A program made the position numbers and the translations under genes. Of a stretch of 64,000 nt of DNA, positions 10,170 through 62,724 are shown piece by piece. This DNA comes from Ignavibacteria bacterium (lineage in GTDB: Bacteria; Bacteroidota; Ignavibacteria; Kapaibacteriales; Kapaibacteriaceae). The stretch covers positions 288,778-352,777 of the forward strand of contig JACPPD010000003.1 in the NCBI GenBank assembly GCA_016191145.1. Reading direction: 5' to 3'. Numbering within the stretch: position 1 is the stretch's first letter; each line of letters opens with the position of its first letter. Under the pieces are notes generated by a model. That model saw nothing but the letters and a program-made list of their open reading frames with translations. It was not told the DNA's origin and made no database searches.

Positions 10170-10652
10170 TCAGGTCTCTTGCAATGCTGGCTGATGAACT
10201 GATGATGCATCGGCTGGATTCTTTTCCTTACGATACACGAGGACAATTTTACTGCTGTGAATGAGATCGGGGAATCTGAGCATGTGTTTATTGAATCGCT
10301 CGGTAGAGTCTATCCTCCTAAAATAGATGTTCATATCATTTAGTTGTTTTAGAATGGTGTTGGCTGACTCCAAGGCTATAAGAGTAGAATTCATAATGGA
10401 ATCAAAATAGAGGGTTTTAAACATTGAGCGGATGGAATCCAAACGTACATCCGTAGAATTCAAAACGGAATCAAAATTGAGAATCCTAAACATTGAGCGG
10501 ATGGAATCCAAACGTACATCAGTAGAGTTCATAACGGAGTCGATATTGAGTGTCTTAAAGATTGAATCGATGTGTCTGTTGTTCACCGACGTGCCGATGT
10601 TCAGGCTTTGCAAAACTGAGTCTATGTTCACCACCTGCAGTACGGAGTCCAT
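10170..10652 (-). pseudogene. NIDS-repeat protein remnant, in frame with the downstream T9SS domain
   Basis: 160-codon ORF of unknown family. It consists of a short repeated module of the form N-[IMF]-D-S-[VI]-x3-L (NMDSVLQVV, NIDSVLQSL) and two near-identical 23-residue units (VMNSTDVRLDSIRSMFRILNFDS-like, 69 bp each). The tail ends HQPALQET before TGA 10170. The repeat pattern extends 25 codons upstream of the ATG at 10652 (NIDSILHRL) without another ATG, and no signal peptide is visible, so the 5' end also appears lost. Same frame as the T9SS fragment beyond the TGA. Likely a decayed surface protein; no function assigned. Confidence 0.55.
10421..10558 (-). repeat. 69-bp in-gene tandem repeat
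   Basis: Two adjacent 69-bp copies, starting at 10421 and 10490 (both ACATTGAGCGGATGGAATCC), encode the 23-residue repeat of the NIDS-repeat remnant. A degenerate third copy is recognisable at about 10387-10420. The unit is a multiple of three, so expansion or contraction keeps the frame. Confidence 0.75.
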
Positions 10653-10744: not shown

Positions 10745-11368
10745 TCAGCTTTCCGTTATCATGTTCAATCCTGACTTCCATCTCAATGATGTCGCGTAAG
10801 TGGGCTTGATGGAATCCGGCAGAGTATTCATGAATTCCATATTAGGCTGATACCACATCACAACATCATCGTCAGGCATTTGGCTTGCAACAGGAATCAG
10901 CATGTTTGCATCGATTGTCCGTGCAGACGTTGAACCGATTACACGCCCCCTACCAGTCGAAGATGTAAACATTACGGGAAGCGGTCGGGGACGGTCCAAA
11001 AACACATCTTCCTGTGGGCGGTTGTTGCGATAGAAACAGAGCTTGACGCGTTGCTGCTTTGAATCGTCCGGACATGATGTTAAGCTGTCGGATTCAAACA
11101 GGCCGAAATAAATTGCTGCCAGCGATTGCTGGCGTATCGAAAGAGATGATTCCACTGCGTCATCACATCGGAGTGCAAAGAACAAAATCTGGTCTGTCGC
11201 TTCTTTGATGGTTGCGAATTGTATATGCCGAGAATTTTCATCGTCGCCGACGCGTTCACTTGCAGATTCAACGGTACCTGGCTTGTTCTCATCGATGTTT
11301 GACGGAAAGATGACGCCAGAAGACAAAACAACGCTCGTGCCTACCTCAGATTTATCCCGAAGTATCAT
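10745..11368 (-). pseudogene. Membrane-anchored protein downstream of an ECF sigma factor, 5' truncated
   Basis: 207-codon ORF with unrecognised soluble domain. Reading upstream of its ATG 11368 the frame stays open for ten more codons giving LAALAVAVGVTSMIL, a good transmembrane helix, then meets a TAG. Beyond that TAG the same frame gives GSPIILIP. The preceding gene is a truncated ECF sigma factor, so this is probably the transmembrane plus periplasmic part of the sigma factor's partner (anti-sigma-like or accessory protein) that has lost its N-terminus. The partner role is inferred from position only; no anti-sigma zinc motif is present in what remains. Confidence 0.45.
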
Positions 11369-15545: not shown

Positions 15546-16718
15546 ATGCTGACCAGAACGATAAAAAATGTTGTTTCAGCCATTGCGATGGCTTTGTTGT
15601 CGCACCCACTTGCATTACCGGAATTACGCGCGATGCCAGGTACATCTGTCTCTGACGACATCTCGCAGGGACGGCAGAACGCAATAACGCGGGCTGTTGC
15701 TAAATGCTCTTCCGCCGTTGTTGGTATCAACGTTACTGAGATTAGAGAGCAAGTGTATCGAGACCCATTTGCTGATGATCCATTTTTTCAGCAATTCCTG
15801 CGCCGGCGGGAATACGTTCAACGGTACAAGGTTCACGGTGTAGGATCCGGTTTCATTATTTCGAAGGATGGTTTTGTCCTTACCAACGATCACGTTGCCG
15901 GCAAGGCTTCGAAAGTTGTAATCACCATGACGGACGGAAAGAAATTCGACGCGAAGGTTGTTGGTAGTGATGCCGTTTCTGATGTTGCACTGTTGAAAAT
16001 TGATGGGGCAAACCTTCCCTACCTGGAGCTGGCTAATAGCGAAGACGTTATTGTGGGCGAATGGACTATTGCATTCGGAAACCCCTTTGGATTATTCGAC
16101 TACAATGCAAAACCAACGGTAACAGTTGGAGTTGTAAGCAATACTGGCGTTAACTTTACCCAACCTGACTACAGCGGCGAAGAGCGTGTATATAAAGGCA
16201 TGATTCAGACAGATGCAGCCATTTCATCGGGCAACAGTGGAGGTCCGCTGGTGAATGCCGTTGGCGAAGTAATCGGTATTAACACCGTCATTTATTCAAC
16301 AGCACAGAGTGCAAGCGGAGCAGGATCCATTGGAATTGGTTTTGCAATTCCAATTAATCGCGTCAATAGCATTGTAAAGCGGCTGAAAGAAGATGGTAAA
16401 ATCGATCGGAATTTTTGGACGGGAATGCGCCTGCAGGAAATCACCCAGGAAATAGCTGAGTACTATGATCTCAAACAAGCGGAAGGTATACTGGTGACGC
16501 GCATTGCAGGCAATAGCCCGGCAGACAAAGCAGGACTAGAGCCGGGTGATATCATCATTGCAATCAATGGTGAACAGGTTGTCAATAACAACGACCTTAA
16601 TCTTGCAATCCTCGATGGCGTTGTTGGACAAAAAATTACCATGACCATACTGAGAAATAAGGAAACGATGAAGCTGACGATGACGCTTGAGAAAGCTCCG
16701 GGGGGAATGCGTGACTAA
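15546..16718 (+). CDS. Trypsin-like serine protease with PDZ domain (DegQ/HtrA family)
   Basis: Periplasmic protease/chaperone for misfolded envelope proteins. I start at ATG 15546 ([10 protein letters not shown]), which opens a signal peptide; the track start lies inside the priA 5' region. Catalytic triad: His in LTNDHV, Asp in VSDVALLKI, Ser in [11 protein letters not shown]. One PDZ domain follows (about 300-385: [23 protein letters not shown]). At 390 aa with a single PDZ it is nearer DegS or a short DegQ than two-PDZ DegP. The first ~35 mature residues include an HtrA-like [12 protein letters not shown] linker. It is co-transcribed with lptB, whose GTG overlaps its last codons. Confidence 0.9.
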
Positions 16719-17460
16719 CGCAAATATCGGATCGGTTCTCCGTGCAGATAAGCTGAAAAAGATTTACGGGAAACGTACCGTCGTTCACGATAGTTCCCTA
16801 CAGGTTCGGCAGGGCGAAGTGGTAGGTTTATTGGGACCCAACGGAGCAGGAAAGACCACAACGTTCTACATGATTGTCGGCTTGGTTGCGCCGGAATCGG
16901 GAAGGGTCTTTCTCAACGAAACAGAAATCACTTCGAAACCAATGTATCGAAGGGCTCGCGCCGGACTTGCCTACCTCCCTCAGGAACCCAGCATCTTCAG
17001 AGGCATGAGCGTTGAAAACAATATCCTTGCCGTTCTCCAACTCAAAAAAATGTCTGGTGCGGACCGACGAAGCCGCCTTGAAGGATTGCTGGAGGAATTC
17101 GGTATCGCTCATGTTAGAAAAAGCAAGGGCTATATGCTGTCGGGCGGTGAGCGACGTCGCTGCGAAATTGCCAGGGCATTGGCATCGGATCCCAAATTTA
17201 TCTTACTCGACGAACCGTTTGCCGGGATCGACCCATTGGCAGTTGAAGAAATCATGAAGATTGTTCGGCATTTAAAAGACAAGGGCATTGGAGTATTAAT
17301 CACAGATCACAACGTCCACGAAACGCTTTCCATCACCGACAGGGCATACATCCTGATTGATGGAAGTATCTACGTCAGCGGCACTGCCGAAGAAGTGTCT
17401 AATAATCCTGGTGTTAGAAAGAACTACCTTGGCGAGAATTTCACCCTTGCCAGGTATTAA
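16711..17460 (+). CDS. lptB: LPS export ABC transporter ATP-binding protein
   Basis: LptB, the cytoplasmic ATPase that powers LPS transport with LptFG. Walker [12 protein letters not shown]-loop LPQEPSIF, signature [15 protein letters not shown], Walker [15 protein letters not shown]-loop ITDHNV; the ERRRCEIAR and [11 protein letters not shown] patterns are LptB-specific. I prefer GTG 16711, which overlaps the htrA stop and has GGGGGG just upstream; the track start at 16687 lies inside htrA. Length 249 aa. No lptA, lptC or lptFG nearby. Followed by the 29-bp tandem repeat. Confidence 0.92.
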
Positions 17461-17474
17461 GCAAGCAACAAGAA

Positions 17475-17583
17475 CATGCCGGGAGGCATATGCTGCCGGG
17501 TAACATGCCGGGAGGCATATGCTGCCGGGTAACATGCCGGGAGGAATATGCTGCCGGGTAACATGCCGGGAGGAATATATCAG
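17475..17583. repeat. 29-bp intergenic tandem repeat, array A (about 3.8 copies)
   Basis: Head-to-tail copies starting at 17475, 17504, 17533 and 17562 (last partial). The unit reads CATGCCGGGAGGCATATG followed by CTGCCGGGTAA. Copies 1-2 are identical; copy 3 and the partial fourth change GGCATATG to GGAATAT(G). The array lies 14 bp after the lptB stop in a convergent intergenic region. Its reverse complement differs by only two bases from the unit of the array at 61917-62057. There are no spacers, so it is not CRISPR. Confidence 0.9.
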
Positions 17584-17701: not shown

Positions 17702-17752
17702 TGGGCTTGGGGCAACATGAGAGTTTGTGCCAAGCCCATTGCTTTTATTTTA
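17702..17752 (+). terminator. Rho-independent terminator after lptB
   Basis: A 9-bp perfect stem TGGGCTTGG / CCAAGCCCA (17702-17710 with 17730-17738) is followed on the + strand by TTGCTTTTATTTTA. It would end + strand transcripts reading out of htrA-lptB through the repeat array. A second small inverted repeat (TTACGTA...TACGTAA, about 17679-17698) lies just upstream. Confidence 0.6.
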
Positions 17753-19940
17753 CTTCAAATTGTATCACCACACTCCGTGCCGGACTTAGGTTGGCGACAG
17801 CTTCGGTATAGTAGTAATCAAAAACATTGCGTCCAACCAGACCTATGCGTATCGTCTGGCTGTACCAGTTCCTGATTGTCCAAAACAACCTGAGATCAAC
17901 AACGTGCGCTGCAACACGAGCACCTGCATCGGGGATAAAGAGCACAAGCCTGTTGTCGATGTTTTGAACTCGACTCTGAAAACGATATTCTGCCTGAAAT
18001 TCAAGCGATTCGAATGGAGTCCACGAACCTAGTGTGTACCACAGAATATTGTTGCGATACTTAAGCGTTTCGTTCAAAATCAAATCCTTTGGCAGCATGG
18101 CAGTGATGCCAGAGGCAATTGCAATATCTTTTGAGACCATTGCCCGCGCGGTTAGCTCCATTCCAAAAATTCGTGCTCGAGTAACATTCGTAAACTGAAT
18201 AGGAACGTTGGGATCGTCAAAGGCAAACGTGGGTTCGATAAGATCGTAAAGTTCGTTATCAAAAACTGCAGCATCCAGTTCAATTGGTATTAACCATTCG
18301 GTTGTTGAATAGCGCATGCCAAGCTCTGCCGACCATGAGGTTTCCGGCTTGATGTTCGGATTGGGCTTAACATCGAACGGACCATACTTGATGTTAGCAT
18401 ATCGCTCAGCGATTGTTGCGGCTCGAAAGCCCCTTCCCACCGATGCCCTAATGTGTAACGCGTCGAGTAACTTCCACGACATACCGAGCTTCGGTGAAAA
18501 TTCCAGTTGAGCAGGCAATGAATATGTTTCTTCACGATCGGCACGCAGACCAGCAGTGATTATCATTGAATTGTCGAACGTGTATTCACCCTGTGTAAAT
18601 GCACTGAACAACGTCTGTAGTTGATTCCCATACACATCGGCACGCACGGCGTTGATTTTTCCAGAGATGCCACTTGTTGCAGTAAACACTTCGGAAAATG
18701 AATGCGTAATGTGACCATCGACATTCCATGCATACGCAATAGACTGATTTGAATCGAGAGCCGCGTTATCAACGCGATTTTCAAAACGCGTTCTATACAT
18801 ACCTGGCCTGATGGTCAGCGATGTCTTTGAATCTATTAATTGCATCCACTCTCCAAATACTGCGATTTTCTGAGTCCACAGACGCTCGTTCAAGTCCTGC
18901 GCTGGCGGCGGACGTGTTGCATTGCGCAGATCCTTCCAATAGATAAAATTTTCAACATTTGATTCCGAAAACAGCGTGGCAACAGTAAGCTTAGCTTTAT
19001 CCACGGGCTTCCATTGCACCTTGCCCCAGCCGAAACCGCGAAGTGAACGATCGAACTGACGGTAGCTTTCATCCGATCGGATGCCTCCGCTCAGGTTGAT
19101 GCTAAATTTATCTATGGTTTGCGTCGCCCGCAGGTCCGCTCCCCACTGCGTTGGAACGGTAGTGCGGTATTTCCACTCGCCGTAACGAGGTTCAGTGTAT
19201 GCTCCGCCATAAACTCTGGCGTTGATGTGCATACCCTCCTTAGGCGATTCTGTAAACATGCTTACTACTCCTCCCAAAGCACCAGTGCCATACAGAGCCG
19301 ATCCGGCGCCCTTGATAACTTCGATTCGTTCTACATCTGCAACGGGCATCACTTCAAACTTGACGTCGCCATTATCGCCAGAAAGCACGGGGAAGCCGTC
19401 CAGCAGCACCATTGTTCTGGAACCGACGCCGAACGCAAAGCCGCTTGTACCCCGAACACTGATTTGATCGCGCACTACATTGACTCCGCTTACATACCTC
19501 AGAGCTTCGTCGAGTCTTGTAACGTTCCTCTGCGTAAGCTCACGTTGATTTACGGTCGACACAGATATCGGAACGTCCTGCACATTTTGGACTGTCTTAT
19601 TTGCCGATACAATTATTTCACCTGTTTTGATACTTGTTTGTAACATGGTAAGAACAACTTCAATAGAGCCATCATCCTTGATGAATGCCGTTACCGAAGT
19701 TGGCTCGTACCCGATCAAAGTCGCCTTAATAGATATTTTTCCTATGGGCACATACCGGAGAACAAAGCGTCCCGATGAGTTGGTGATTGCTCCGAGCTGC
19801 GTGCCTTCGATACCAATAGACACCCCTGCGAGTGGCGATCCGTCCTCTCTGTCTGTTACAAAACCGTTTATCGTTCCCACCTGTGCAAGTGCATTGGTGC
19901 ATGTAATGATGAGAACGCAAAATGTCGGAATGAAATTCAT
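17745..19940 (-). CDS. TonB-dependent receptor with N-terminal carboxypeptidase-regulatory-like domain
   Basis: Outer-membrane active-transport receptor, 731 aa. Signal peptide ends at NALAQ. Residues about 24-100 form a CarboxypepD_reg-like domain (INGFVTDREDGSPLAGVSI). The plug (about 115-225) has ISVSTVNQRELTQRNVTRL, RTMVLLDGFPVLSG, VERIEVIKGAGSALYGTGA. The rest is a beta-barrel. It resembles BtuB/FepA-type receptors, but the ligand cannot be read. It overlaps by 4 bp the lipoprotein gene upstream (19937-20443), which is probably its surface partner. The C-terminus ends QFEVK, not the usual terminal aromatic residue. Confidence 0.9.
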   Translation of the reverse strand: MNFIPTFCVLIITCTNALAQVGTINGFVTDREDGSPLAGVSIGIEGTQLGAITNSSGRFVLRYVPIGKISIKATLIGYEPTSVTAFIKDDGSIEVVLTMLQTSIKTGEIIVSANKTVQNVQDVPISVSTVNQRELTQRNVTRLDEALRYVSGVNVVRDQISVRGTSGFAFGVGSRTMVLLDGFPVLSGDNGDVKFEVMPVADVERIEVIKGAGSALYGTGALGGVVSMFTESPKEGMHINARVYGGAYTEPRYGEWKYRTTVPTQWGADLRATQTIDKFSINLSGGIRSDESYRQFDRSLRGFGWGKVQWKPVDKAKLTVATLFSESNVENFIYWKDLRNATRPPPAQDLNERLWTQKIAVFGEWMQLIDSKTSLTIRPGMYRTRFENRVDNAALDSNQSIAYAWNVDGHITHSFSEVFTATSGISGKINAVRADVYGNQLQTLFSAFTQGEYTFDNSMIITAGLRADREETYSLPAQLEFSPKLGMSWKLLDALHIRASVGRGFRAATIAERYANIKYGPFDVKPNPNIKPETSWSAELGMRYSTTEWLIPIELDAAVFDNELYDLIEPTFAFDDPNVPIQFTNVTRARIFGMELTARAMVSKDIAIASGITAMLPKDLILNETLKYRNNILWYTLGSWTPFESLEFQAEYRFQSRVQNIDNRLVLFIPDAGARVAAHVVDLRLFWTIRNWYSQTIRIGLVGRNVFDYYYTEAVANLSPARSVVIQFEVK

Positions 19941-60014: not shown

Positions 60015-61087
60015 GCTTCAGTTTTTATGGATTTGATCACTTCGTCGAATGCATTAAAAAATACTTCAACGTCAGCCATCGATCTGTTACCACATGTTCC
60101 AATACGAAATATTTTTCCCTGAAGGCTTTCCTGTCCGCCCACTATTACAATACTATGTTTCTGAAGCAAGTCCCGAATTATTTCATCAGGGTGATCTGTT
60201 GCTGCGCAAACAAGGGCATTTGATGTTGCCTCGCCAAACAATGGAAAGCCCCTTTCAAGAAGACCCGACCGTATTGAGCCTGCAACAAGATTGTGACGCG
60301 ACCATACCTGCTCGATACCTTCCTGATTAATCATTTCGATGGCTTCGTGCAGTGCAGCCAGAAGCGTAACCGGAGGCGTCCAGGTAAACAGTCCTCGCTG
60401 CTGTTGATCAATTATGGTCTTGAGGTTCATGGTGTACGTGTGCGCATCGTGTGATTTTACACGCTCGACAGCGCGCATGGATAGGGCACAGCAGGCCACA
60501 CCCGGCGGACACATCAAGCCTTTCTGTATACCAGTAACGGCTACATCCACATCCCACTGAGTCATGCGAAATTCGTGAATGGCAATGCTCGATATGGCAT
60601 CTACACACAACAAAACCGACGGATTTATGCTTTGCACCCGTTCCGCAATTACGTGCAAGTCCTGCAATACTCCAGTTGATGTTTCGGAATGCACAATCCA
60701 GAGAGCCGAAACATCGTAAATATTATTAATAACGTCGGCGAGCTCATCCACATCAACAGACTTTCCCCATTCAACCAATACTTCCACCACATTGATCCCG
60801 TACATGCGCGCCACGGCAGCAATCCGTTCACCGAATCTACCGTTGTTTACAGCTACAATGGTGTCGCCTTTTTGATGCAGAGATGCTATACACGCTTCGA
60901 TACCCGTCATACCGCTCCCGCCAAGAACCGTAACCATACCATCGGTCATAAAGATGTCGGCGAGTCCGGACCAAATACGTTTGGATAAATCAATGAATTC
61001 AGATGAACGGTGATGCAATGGCTGACGGGACATTACTTCGGCAATGCGTTGAGGAATATTCACCGGACCGGGAGTGAACAAATTCAT
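60011..61087 (-). CDS. Class V aminotransferase (alanine-glyoxylate/serine-pyruvate type)
   Basis: 358 aa from ATG 61087 (MNLFTPGPVNIPQRI), which overlaps the methyltransferase stop. PLP enzyme with FTPGPVNIP, TVLGGSGMTGIEACIASL, LCVDAISSIA, and the Schiff-base Lys in GIQKGLMCPPG, ending at RIGTCGN. Family members transaminate Ala, Ser or glyoxylate; the true substrate is not certain. Part of the four-gene overlapping operon. Confidence 0.88.
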   Translation of the reverse strand: MNLFTPGPVNIPQRIAEVMSRQPLHHRSSEFIDLSKRIWSGLADIFMTDGMVTVLGGSGMTGIEACIASLHQKGDTIVAVNNGRFGERIAAVARMYGINVVEVLVEWGKSVDVDELADVINNIYDVSALWIVHSETSTGVLQDLHVIAERVQSINPSVLLCVDAISSIAIHEFRMTQWDVDVAVTGIQKGLMCPPGVACCALSMRAVERVKSHDAHTYTMNLKTIIDQQQRGLFTWTPPVTLLAALHEAIEMINQEGIEQVWSRHNLVAGSIRSGLLERGFPLFGEATSNALVCAATDHPDEIIRDLLQKHSIVIVGGQESLQGKIFRIGTCGNRSMADVEVFFNAFDEVIKSIKTEA

Positions 61088-61848
61088 GTGGGAATCCGAG
61101 CTTCGTAGCACAATATTCCCGCAGCAACTGCTGCATTAAGCGACTCAACGCCCGAACCTCCCGGAATCGATACGGTATGGGTACATAGTGCAAGCGCCTC
61201 CGGAGAAACGCCATGTGCCTCCGATCCTACAACTAAGGCAAGCTGCTTGCAATTTCGAATTGCAGACGGGTCCAATCCACCGGCAACGACTGCAGCAACA
61301 ATTGTTCTGCCTTTCAGTGATTGTAACGTTGACACCGTGTCGGCCTTCCTCACAACATTGATTTGAAAAGCAGTTCCTGCAGTAGCTCGCATTGTCTTCG
61401 GATTGTAAAGATCAGCAGTTTCCCGGCACAGTACAACATCGGAAAATCCAAACCACGCTGCCGTTCTGACGATGGTTCCAACATTTCCAGGATCGCTAAC
61501 TGCGTCGAGAACAAGTGTATGCTGTCCGATTTCTTTTTCTTGCAGGTAGGGGACAACTGCAAGTATTTGTTGTGGAGCCACGGTACTGGTCATCACCGAC
61601 ATGTCGCGCGGAGTGCATTCAAAAATCTCAACGCCCATTTCAAGCCATGCTGAACACAACGCTTGCGCTTCACTATTGGAACCTGCTTCAACGATTACAT
61701 ACTGCGGGATGACGTGATTATTTAACAGCTCGATGTTAAGGTGGAGGCCTTCTGCAACAAACAAGTGTCGTTCTTGCCGTACTTGGTGTTTGAGGAGTGT
61801 ACGTGTATCGTTTCGAAGGTTGAACGAAAGCTTTTTCAGTAGCTGCAT
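61084..61848 (-). CDS. TrmH/SpoU-family RNA 2'-O-ribose methyltransferase
   Basis: 254 aa. N-terminal substrate-binding domain (RHLFVAEGLHLNIELL) and a C-terminal SPOUT knot with motif 1 DAVSDPGNVGTIVRTAAW, motif 2 LVVGSEAHGVS, motif 3 IPGGSGVESLNAAVAAGI. The substrate (23S rRNA or tRNA) is not determinable. First gene of the operon; the 29-bp repeat array B lies about 70 bp upstream of its start. Confidence 0.9.
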   Translation of the reverse strand: MQLLKKLSFNLRNDTRTLLKHQVRQERHLFVAEGLHLNIELLNNHVIPQYVIVEAGSNSEAQALCSAWLEMGVEIFECTPRDMSVMTSTVAPQQILAVVPYLQEKEIGQHTLVLDAVSDPGNVGTIVRTAAWFGFSDVVLCRETADLYNPKTMRATAGTAFQINVVRKADTVSTLQSLKGRTIVAAVVAGGLDPSAIRNCKQLALVVGSEAHGVSPEALALCTHTVSIPGGSGVESLNAAVAAGILCYEARIPT

Positions 61849-61916
61849 CTCAACGCAAAGCTATGAAGAGCATGATTGTTGCTGAAAACACCAACGGCTC
61901 CAAACGATTGATCTTC

Positions 61917-62057
61917 CCCGGCAGCATATGTCTCCCGGCATGTTGCCCGGCAGCATATGTCTCCCGGCATGTTGCCCGGCAGCATATGTCTCCCGGTATG
62001 TTGCCCGGCAGCATATGTCTCCCGGCATGTTGCCCGGCAGCATATGTCTCCCGGCAT
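61917..62057. repeat. 29-bp intergenic tandem repeat, array B (about 4.9 copies)
   Basis: Copies start at 61917, 61946, 61975, 62004 and 62033 (last partial). Unit: CCCGGCAGCATATGTCTC plus CCGGCATGTTG. All copies are near-identical (one T in copy 3). The reverse complement is only two bases different from the unit at 17475-17583, so the arrays are the same family in opposite orientation. No spacers. Present between a methyltransferase gene and a TlpA gene. Confidence 0.9.
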
Positions 62058-62124
62058 CATTTAGCTAAGCGAAGTAAGTTATTGACAATACGTTTACTTG
62101 AAAAAGCCCGATCTGAAACAGCAA

Positions 62125-62148
62125 CGGCTCCCATATGGAAGGGAGCCG
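62125..62148 (-). terminator. Intrinsic-terminator-like hairpin after tlpA
   Basis: Perfect 8-bp stem CGGCTCCC / GGGAGCCG with an 8-nt loop, 25 bp beyond the tlpA stop (62173) on the minus strand, extendable by an outer GAAACA/TGTTTC pairing. The minus-strand tail TTGCTGTTTC is only weakly T-rich, so the assignment is moderate. Confidence 0.5.
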
Positions 62149-62172: not shown

Positions 62173-62724
62173 TTAAAGTACGCGTTTAATCGCAGTTTCG
62201 AACTGTACTTTCGACTGCATGCCCACGATTTTTTGTATAATCTTTCCGTTCTTATCGATGATGAAGGTGGTGGGAATCGAGGGGATTCTGCCGTAGGCCT
62301 CGGCTACTTTTTGCTGTCCATCGAACACGGTTACAAAGGGTATCGAGAATTTATCAACAAAGTTCTGAATCTGCGTCAGGGCATTATCGGCTTGGTCGAG
62401 GGCTACGCCAACGACAACAACATTTTTACCTGAATATTCCTTGCTGAGTGCAACGAGATCCGGCATTTCTCTGCGGCATGGACCGCACCATGTTGCCCAG
62501 AAATTCAGGAGTACTACCTTACCGCGGGTGTGTTCAGAAAATGAAACTATCTGTGAGCCATTTTTCCAGGTAAAATCCGCAGCAATGCCTTCACCTCGTT
62601 TGGAGATAGAAACTATAGAATAGACTGTGTTTGTACCAGGCAGTTGAGCACTGATTGTTGGGTAGACCATTGTTGCCAGTGCAACACCGATGACGGTAAA
62701 AACTGAAGATCCCTTTATTTGCAC
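62173..62724 (-). CDS. TlpA-family thioredoxin-like protein
   Basis: 183 aa. GTG start (MQIKGSSVFTVIG), N-terminal signal/anchor helix, then a thioredoxin fold with the redox motif LNFWATWCGPCRREMP and the cis-Pro loop IPSIPTTFIIDKNGK. Probably a periplasmic disulfide reductase. Lies 72 bp downstream of the leucyl aminopeptidase on the same strand. Confidence 0.88.
   Translation of the reverse strand: MQIKGSSVFTVIGVALATMVYPTISAQLPGTNTVYSIVSISKRGEGIAADFTWKNGSQIVSFSEHTRGKVVLLNFWATWCGPCRREMPDLVALSKEYSGKNVVVVGVALDQADNALTQIQNFVDKFSIPFVTVFDGQQKVAEAYGRIPSIPTTFIIDKNGKIIQKIVGMQSKVQFETAIKRVL

Follow-up and report, generated by a model that had tools for sequence, protein, structure and literature searches.

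A dispersed family of 29-bp tandem repeats in an Ignavibacteria genome, probably a REP-like system associated with RAYT transposases

The window is the whole stretch of DNA that was analysed (64,000 nucleotides of contig JACPPD010000003.1, assembly GCA_016191145.1, from an Ignavibacteria bacterium whose genome is called G000). Positions are those of the window unless a contig (C) or another retrieved locus (L) is named. The tandem array under study, array B, lies between two genes read on the minus strand; a second array of the same family, array A, lies elsewhere in the window. G001, given below for comparison, is the closest relative and belongs to the same genus. The features are sorted by position.

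17472 to 17575, plus strand: array A, TGCCGGG-AGGCATATGC-TGCCGGG-TAACA, same family as array B, 7 heptamers.
61084 to 61848, minus strand: SpoU/TrmH-type RNA methyltransferase gene (trmH), flanks array B.
61882 to 61901, no strand: CTGAAAACACCAACGGCTCC, one of two imperfect 20-bp direct copies, bordering on its trmH side the extra DNA that G001 lacks.
61917 to 62061, minus strand: array B, five 29-bp units TGCCGGG-AGACATATGC-TGCCGGG-CAACA (minus-strand reading).
62113 to 62132, no strand: CTGAAACAGCAACGGCTCCC, the second of these direct copies, towards tlpA; in G001 the stretch is single and the array absent.
62126 to 62147, minus strand: hairpin GGCTCCC...GGGAGCC behind tlpA, terminator-like, also found in G001 and outside the repeat.
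62173 to 62724, minus strand: TlpA/AhpC-TSA-type thioredoxin-like gene (tlpA), flanks array B.

Array B was delimited by TRF at 61917-62057 (period 29, 4.9 copies, 98% matches, no indels). Its units start at 61917, 61946, 61975, 62004 and 62033; the unit at 61975 has a single mismatch (CCCGGTA), and the final one is complete for its first 25 bases. Nine heptamers are exact and one is mutated (TACCGGG). The number of matches expected by chance is 0.00 (100 dinucleotide-preserving shuffles). The original prediction of about five copies with one T in the third is thus borne out. The gene coordinates agree with the placement that it gave, between minus-strand genes and near the trmH-like start: the array is 68 bp upstream of the trmH start codon and downstream of the tlpA-like gene. 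Array A was likewise correctly described as lying downstream of two convergent genes: at 17472-17570 it is between an LptB-like ABC gene (16687-17460, plus strand) and a TonB-receptor-like gene (17745-19940, minus strand). The window also contains a 69-bp tandem repeat (10383-10565, 2.7 copies) within a 160-aa minus-strand ORF, where it encodes 23-residue protein repeats.

Arrays A and B are two of the 41 arrays of this family in G000 (2.47 Mb, 19 contigs), a number counted from retrieved stretches, which may lack single-unit copies located on contigs C10-C19. The core of the family is the heptamer TGCCGGG (CCCGGCA on the plus strand at array B), repeated in alternating steps of 17 and 12 bp, so that the minus-strand unit reads TGCCGGG-N10-TGCCGGG-N5. 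The 41 arrays hold 264 heptamers, separated by steps of 17 bp (117 times), 12 bp (98 times) and a few others. Genome-wide, the heptamer pair occurs 219 times, versus 0 for the reversed control pattern. The 10-nt spacer is AG-NN-ATATGC, variable at positions 3 and 4 and nearly fixed at the others. GAACA and TAACA are the commonest linkers, the 5′ linker pattern being G-N-A-A-[C/G]. Units are arranged head to tail; inverted units are found in few arrays, mostly at array ends. A literature search on the heptamer gave nothing relevant, and no paper was found that pairs Kapabacteria with REP.

Two 5-nt linkers taken from the same array are identical in 72% of pairs, versus 12% when they come from different arrays; 0 of 2000 permutations reached this difference. 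Arrays A and B differ in their linkers (TAACA versus CAACA) and also in their spacers. Homogenisation therefore acts within loci and not as concerted evolution across both: of the homogenisation proposed for the two loci, the part within each array holds and the part that joins A to B does not.

No clear preference of strand or position relative to genes was found across the arrays, as expected from the claim that array B is not merely a 3′-UTR element. Gene contexts are co-directional (19), divergent (10) or convergent (7), and TGCCGGG is on the same strand as the neighbouring gene in 32 cases and on the opposite one in 23. A single array falls within a called ORF (at least 150 aa), near the ORF start. 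A 3′-UTR, terminator or promoter element was rejected because of this lack of bias. A coding repeat was rejected because 29 is not a multiple of 3 and the lone ORF through array B is otherwise unsupported, and a CRISPR array because the 5- and 10-nt linkers recur and no cas gene lies near array A or B.

A second dispersed family of G000 includes the same heptamer. It is a perfect 26-bp palindrome, TGCCGGGTATC(AAGA or TCTT)GATACCCGGCA, found single or paired and often with complementary extensions outside (L032, L037, L041, L042, L043, L050, L053, L058, L061).

The 29-bp unit is an imperfect palindrome, TGCCGGG-AG-NNATATG-C-TGCCGGG, followed by the linker. One unit is predicted to fold as a single strand into a hairpin with CCGG/CCGG pairing, a G.G mismatch, AG/CT pairing and a 7-nt loop. 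The variable spacer positions sit in this loop, so the three main variants share the same predicted fold. The predicted hairpin of a single unit is weak (about -5.5 kcal/mol, z -1.4 to -2.5). The minus strand of array B as a whole is predicted to fold at -44.1 kcal/mol versus a shuffle mean of -26.0 (z -6.2); z is -2.6 for the opposite strand. Compared with REP elements, the repeats are numerous, dispersed and intergenic (41 arrays, 264 heptamers) and form a short palindrome that is imperfectly capable of a hairpin, weak as one unit and strong as an array. The GT[AG]G tetranucleotide found 5′ of the hairpin in canonical REPs is absent from the units, and the units of G000 do not show the alternating REP orientation of BIMEs. 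Since both the GTAG foot and the alternating orientation are lacking, the repeats are termed REP-like, not REPs or BIMEs.

Orthologous sites in G001 were located with fragments of the flanking genes. The gap between tlpA and trmH is about 94 bp in G001 versus 324 bp in G000. G001 is devoid of array B, and the extra DNA of G000 lies between the imperfect 20-bp copies, of which G001 has one. Either a gain in G000 or a deletion in G001 could account for this difference, no outgroup having aligned at this site. The L039 and L045_2228 sites are also empty in G001. Arrays are found in both species at 11 other loci, mostly with different copy numbers, and at several common loci the linker differs through the whole array between G000 and G001. 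These empty sites and differences in copy number and linker imply that sites are gained or lost and that arrays are resized and homogenised locally. They also favour the recent change that had been proposed for array B. At one G001 locus (L130), the orthologous counterpart of L043, a tandem repeat of unrelated sequence (about 22 bp, ATTCGTAAATACATCGGAATGA) occupies the place of the 29-bp array of G000.

A search for Y1_Tnp (PF01797) found four genes in G000. One of them (C3:10525-11118, that is L037:10525-11118, minus strand, 197 aa) lies between two arrays of the 29-bp family (10409-10502 and 11176-11288), so that C3:10409-11288 has the organisation of a REPtron, with a RAYT that has its own repeat at both flanks. 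The protein scores 88.4 bits on NCBIfam NF047646 (REP-associated tyrosine transposase; cut-off 80), and its sole PDB match is TnpA_REP (4er8). It is a Y1 HUH protein with the NHxH and Y---NP motifs of RAYTs (NHFH, YIHLNP, 61 aa from HuH to Y), distinct from IS200, and has FE where subclass 2.1 has FQ. This RAYT and its two arrays are absent from G001, whose assembly is 80% complete. Two other RAYTs of G000 (C2, near 86776 and 94283; L066 and L067) are paralogs with 80% identity, each with 12-bp tandem repeats ACGCCGGGAGAA on both sides.

RAYTs flanked on both sides by their own repeats were also found in G002, G006, G008, G015, G017, G018 and G019; the RAYT of G005 has a repeat at one side only. 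Each of the 13 RAYTs of the clade in the family is accompanied by a short repeat with a CCGG core, in most cases on both sides of the gene and otherwise on one. These repeats are tandem (29, 14, 12 or 11 bp, or 26-28 bp CTCCCGG...) or hairpins, e.g. TGCCGGGAAAGTATAGTACCCGGCA. At least 19 bp are common to the two flanks in 10 of the 12 testable RAYTs of this clade. The density of TGCCGGG is 6.57 per kb at the RAYTs of the clade versus 0.42 at 35 other Y1 genes. Seven of these 35 share at least 13 bp between flanks, but without TGCCGGG, as expected for IS200-type ends. In the tree, the RAYT clade is separate from IS200-type Y1 proteins (100/99 support). Several relatives of the RAYT score 71-79 on NF047646, just below the cut-off of 80. 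G001 (80% complete) and G002 both have 17/12 arrays, but neither yielded a RAYT with such arrays at its flanks.

Among RAYT relatives in other phyla, at least 15 bp are common to the near flanks in 48 of 66 cases; in each of two controls, one comparing far flanks and the other flanks taken from different loci, this held for 0 of 66. RAYT relatives of Patescibacteria and other phyla (L157-L235) have repeats or hairpins common to both flanks, mostly without GTAG; these look like a wide and little-described set of RAYT-repeat pairs.

The heptamer pair was searched in 60 relatives, some of which have it in abundance and others hardly at all. G001 has 17/12 arrays. G002, a congener, has the heptamer and the 17/12 phasing with a spacer, AAGCTAGCTT, that is a different palindrome. 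The step is 14 bp in G006 and 11 bp in G008, where the halves are inverted. From this comparison, the heptamer and, within the genus, the phasing persist, whereas the spacer sequence changes.

A RAYT located between two arrays and a site without array in the closest relative are the grounds for reading the family as a head-to-tail variant of REPs. The arrays are probably tandem, REP/BIME-like non-autonomous elements whose dispersal is due to a RAYT and whose size then changes locally through slippage or recombination. According to the published model, TnpA_REP acts on single-stranded DNA, where it recognises the REP, cleaves next to it and joins it again (PMC8266576). By analogy, the RAYT, a TnpA_REP-like HUH single-strand nuclease encoded elsewhere between two arrays, would act on the 29-bp repeats: it would recognise the heptamer or hairpin on single-stranded DNA, cut and rejoin the unit, which would move in single-stranded form, and thereby seed copies into intergenic DNA. 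Seeded arrays would then grow, shrink and be homogenised locally by slippage or unequal recombination. Direct tandem growth might result from the reuse of one unit as a target or from slippage after seeding. The weak hairpin of the single unit, the lack of a GTAG foot and the direct repeats found where BIMEs alternate are points against a RAYT-based dispersal. So are the 17/12 arrays of G001 and G002, for which no RAYT flanked by them was found, and the possibility that the empty site reflects a deletion in G001.

Variation of copy number between orthologous arrays and homogenisation of linkers within arrays would also be found in plain intergenic minisatellites (VNTRs), in which slippage, unequal crossing over and segmental duplication would act with no dedicated enzyme and the RAYT would be incidental. 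The ends of paralogous genes adjoin some arrays, a sign that segmental duplication may have spread them. Arrays at L035, L037:314 and L054, and those at L051:14382, L052 and L061, adjoin such ends a few hundred bases from contig ends; each set probably corresponds to segmental duplications carrying arrays, with assembly breaks there. This explanation is nevertheless unlikely, as it accounts neither for one invariant heptamer with 17/12 phasing in 41 places, nor for the recurrence of this heptamer with different spacings in other genera, nor for the many genomes in which RAYTs have repeats of their own at their flanks. The constant step and the invariant heptamer would suit arrays of protein-binding sites, TGCCGGG being the site and the link with RAYTs secondary; such a role in nucleoid structure or gene regulation has been suggested for tandem repeats of constant size in other bacteria (PMC8161180). 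It is very improbable here: there is no promoter or strand preference, step sizes are lineage-specific (11, 14, 29 bp), and sites are gained or lost between sister species.

The third alternative, equally improbable, makes the array the cargo of a longer miniature transposon with a module of about 90 bp. A similar module, ending near CTCAAACTGAGGCACTAC, is found on one side of 11 of the 41 arrays (L031, L032, L038, L039, L040, L043, L045, L046, L048, L051, L064) but is missing from the other thirty, array B among them. The clearest copy, L039, whose site is empty in G001, carries terminal inverted repeats (near GTAGTGTCTCAGTTTGA) as well as a direct repeat of 13 bp, which suggests a composite miniature element, and imperfect 20-bp direct copies bracket array B. 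Good terminal repeats are, however, found in two copies only, and direct repeats of at least 11 bp surround one of the 41 arrays. A miniature transposon carrying all arrays was rejected given this distribution of the module and a terminal-repeat motif found 12 times versus 4 in the reversed control, barely above it. A general target-site duplication was rejected too, direct repeats being found at L039 and, imperfectly, at array B only.

A further proposal is put forward tentatively: tandem direct repeats may serve as substrate for a RAYT clade that stands apart from the subclasses known to bear REPs. This clade may read geometry, the CCGG-core heptamer being invariant and its step fixed (17/12, 14, 12 or 11 bp) while the spacers change freely, with RAYT and step co-evolving. 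Such pairs might be frequent in Kapabacteria and candidate phyla, and might have escaped notice since searches sought GTAG hairpins.

REP elements are among the commonest bacterial repeats, and the mode of spreading by RAYTs is unsettled. The lineage studied here offers a natural series for testing the recognition specificity of RAYTs and the growth of arrays: it comprises several RAYT-repeat pairs (even in one genome), a heptamer kept across genera with changing step and spacer, and filled and empty sites in sister species. As in REP/BIME and TnpA_REP systems (REPtrons; PMC2817692, PMC8266576, PMC6006769), the repeats are short, dispersed, intergenic and (imperfectly) palindromic, they lie on both sides of the RAYT gene, and each RAYT has its own repeat; a mismatch within the stem is also found in E. 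coli REP. Unlike BIMEs, in which REP and inverted REP alternate, the arrays of G000 are direct and head to tail with 17/12 phasing; unlike REPs, they have no GT[AG]G foot, and their stem is very short. The constant-size tandem repeats of Bacillus (20-21 and 52 nt; PMC8161180) also form many non-coding, species-specific arrays per genome with a constant period and conserved short motifs, but differ in period and motif and have no reported association with a transposase. The present family suggests a possible origin for some unexplained constant-size tandem repeats in bacteria.

Canonical REPs are reported for RAYT subclasses 2.2, 2.4, 2.5, 2.7 and 2.8 and atypical structures for 2.6 and 3, with none for 2.1 and 2.3 (PMC6006769). 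Subclass 2.6 (group 5, Bacteroidetes; PMC6006769) has related hosts and atypical flanking structures without GTAG, copies of which occur elsewhere in the genome, but it has YIH[QN]NP and about 82 aa between motifs, versus YIHLNP and 61 aa in the RAYT of contig C3. Subclass 2.1 (Bertels group 1) is characterised by NH[YF]H, FQ, Y[IV]HLNP, about 60 aa from HuH to Y and a C-terminal extension (PMC6006769). By its motifs and their spacing (NH[YF]H, Y[IV]HLNP, 61 aa from HuH to Y), the C3 RAYT fits subclass 2.1 better than 2.6, although it has FE instead of FQ. Subclass 2.1 was reported without nearby REP-like sequences, whereas nearly all RAYTs studied here are flanked by repeats; if the C3 RAYT does belong to it, the 29-bp family would be a REP-like system in a subclass where none had been found.
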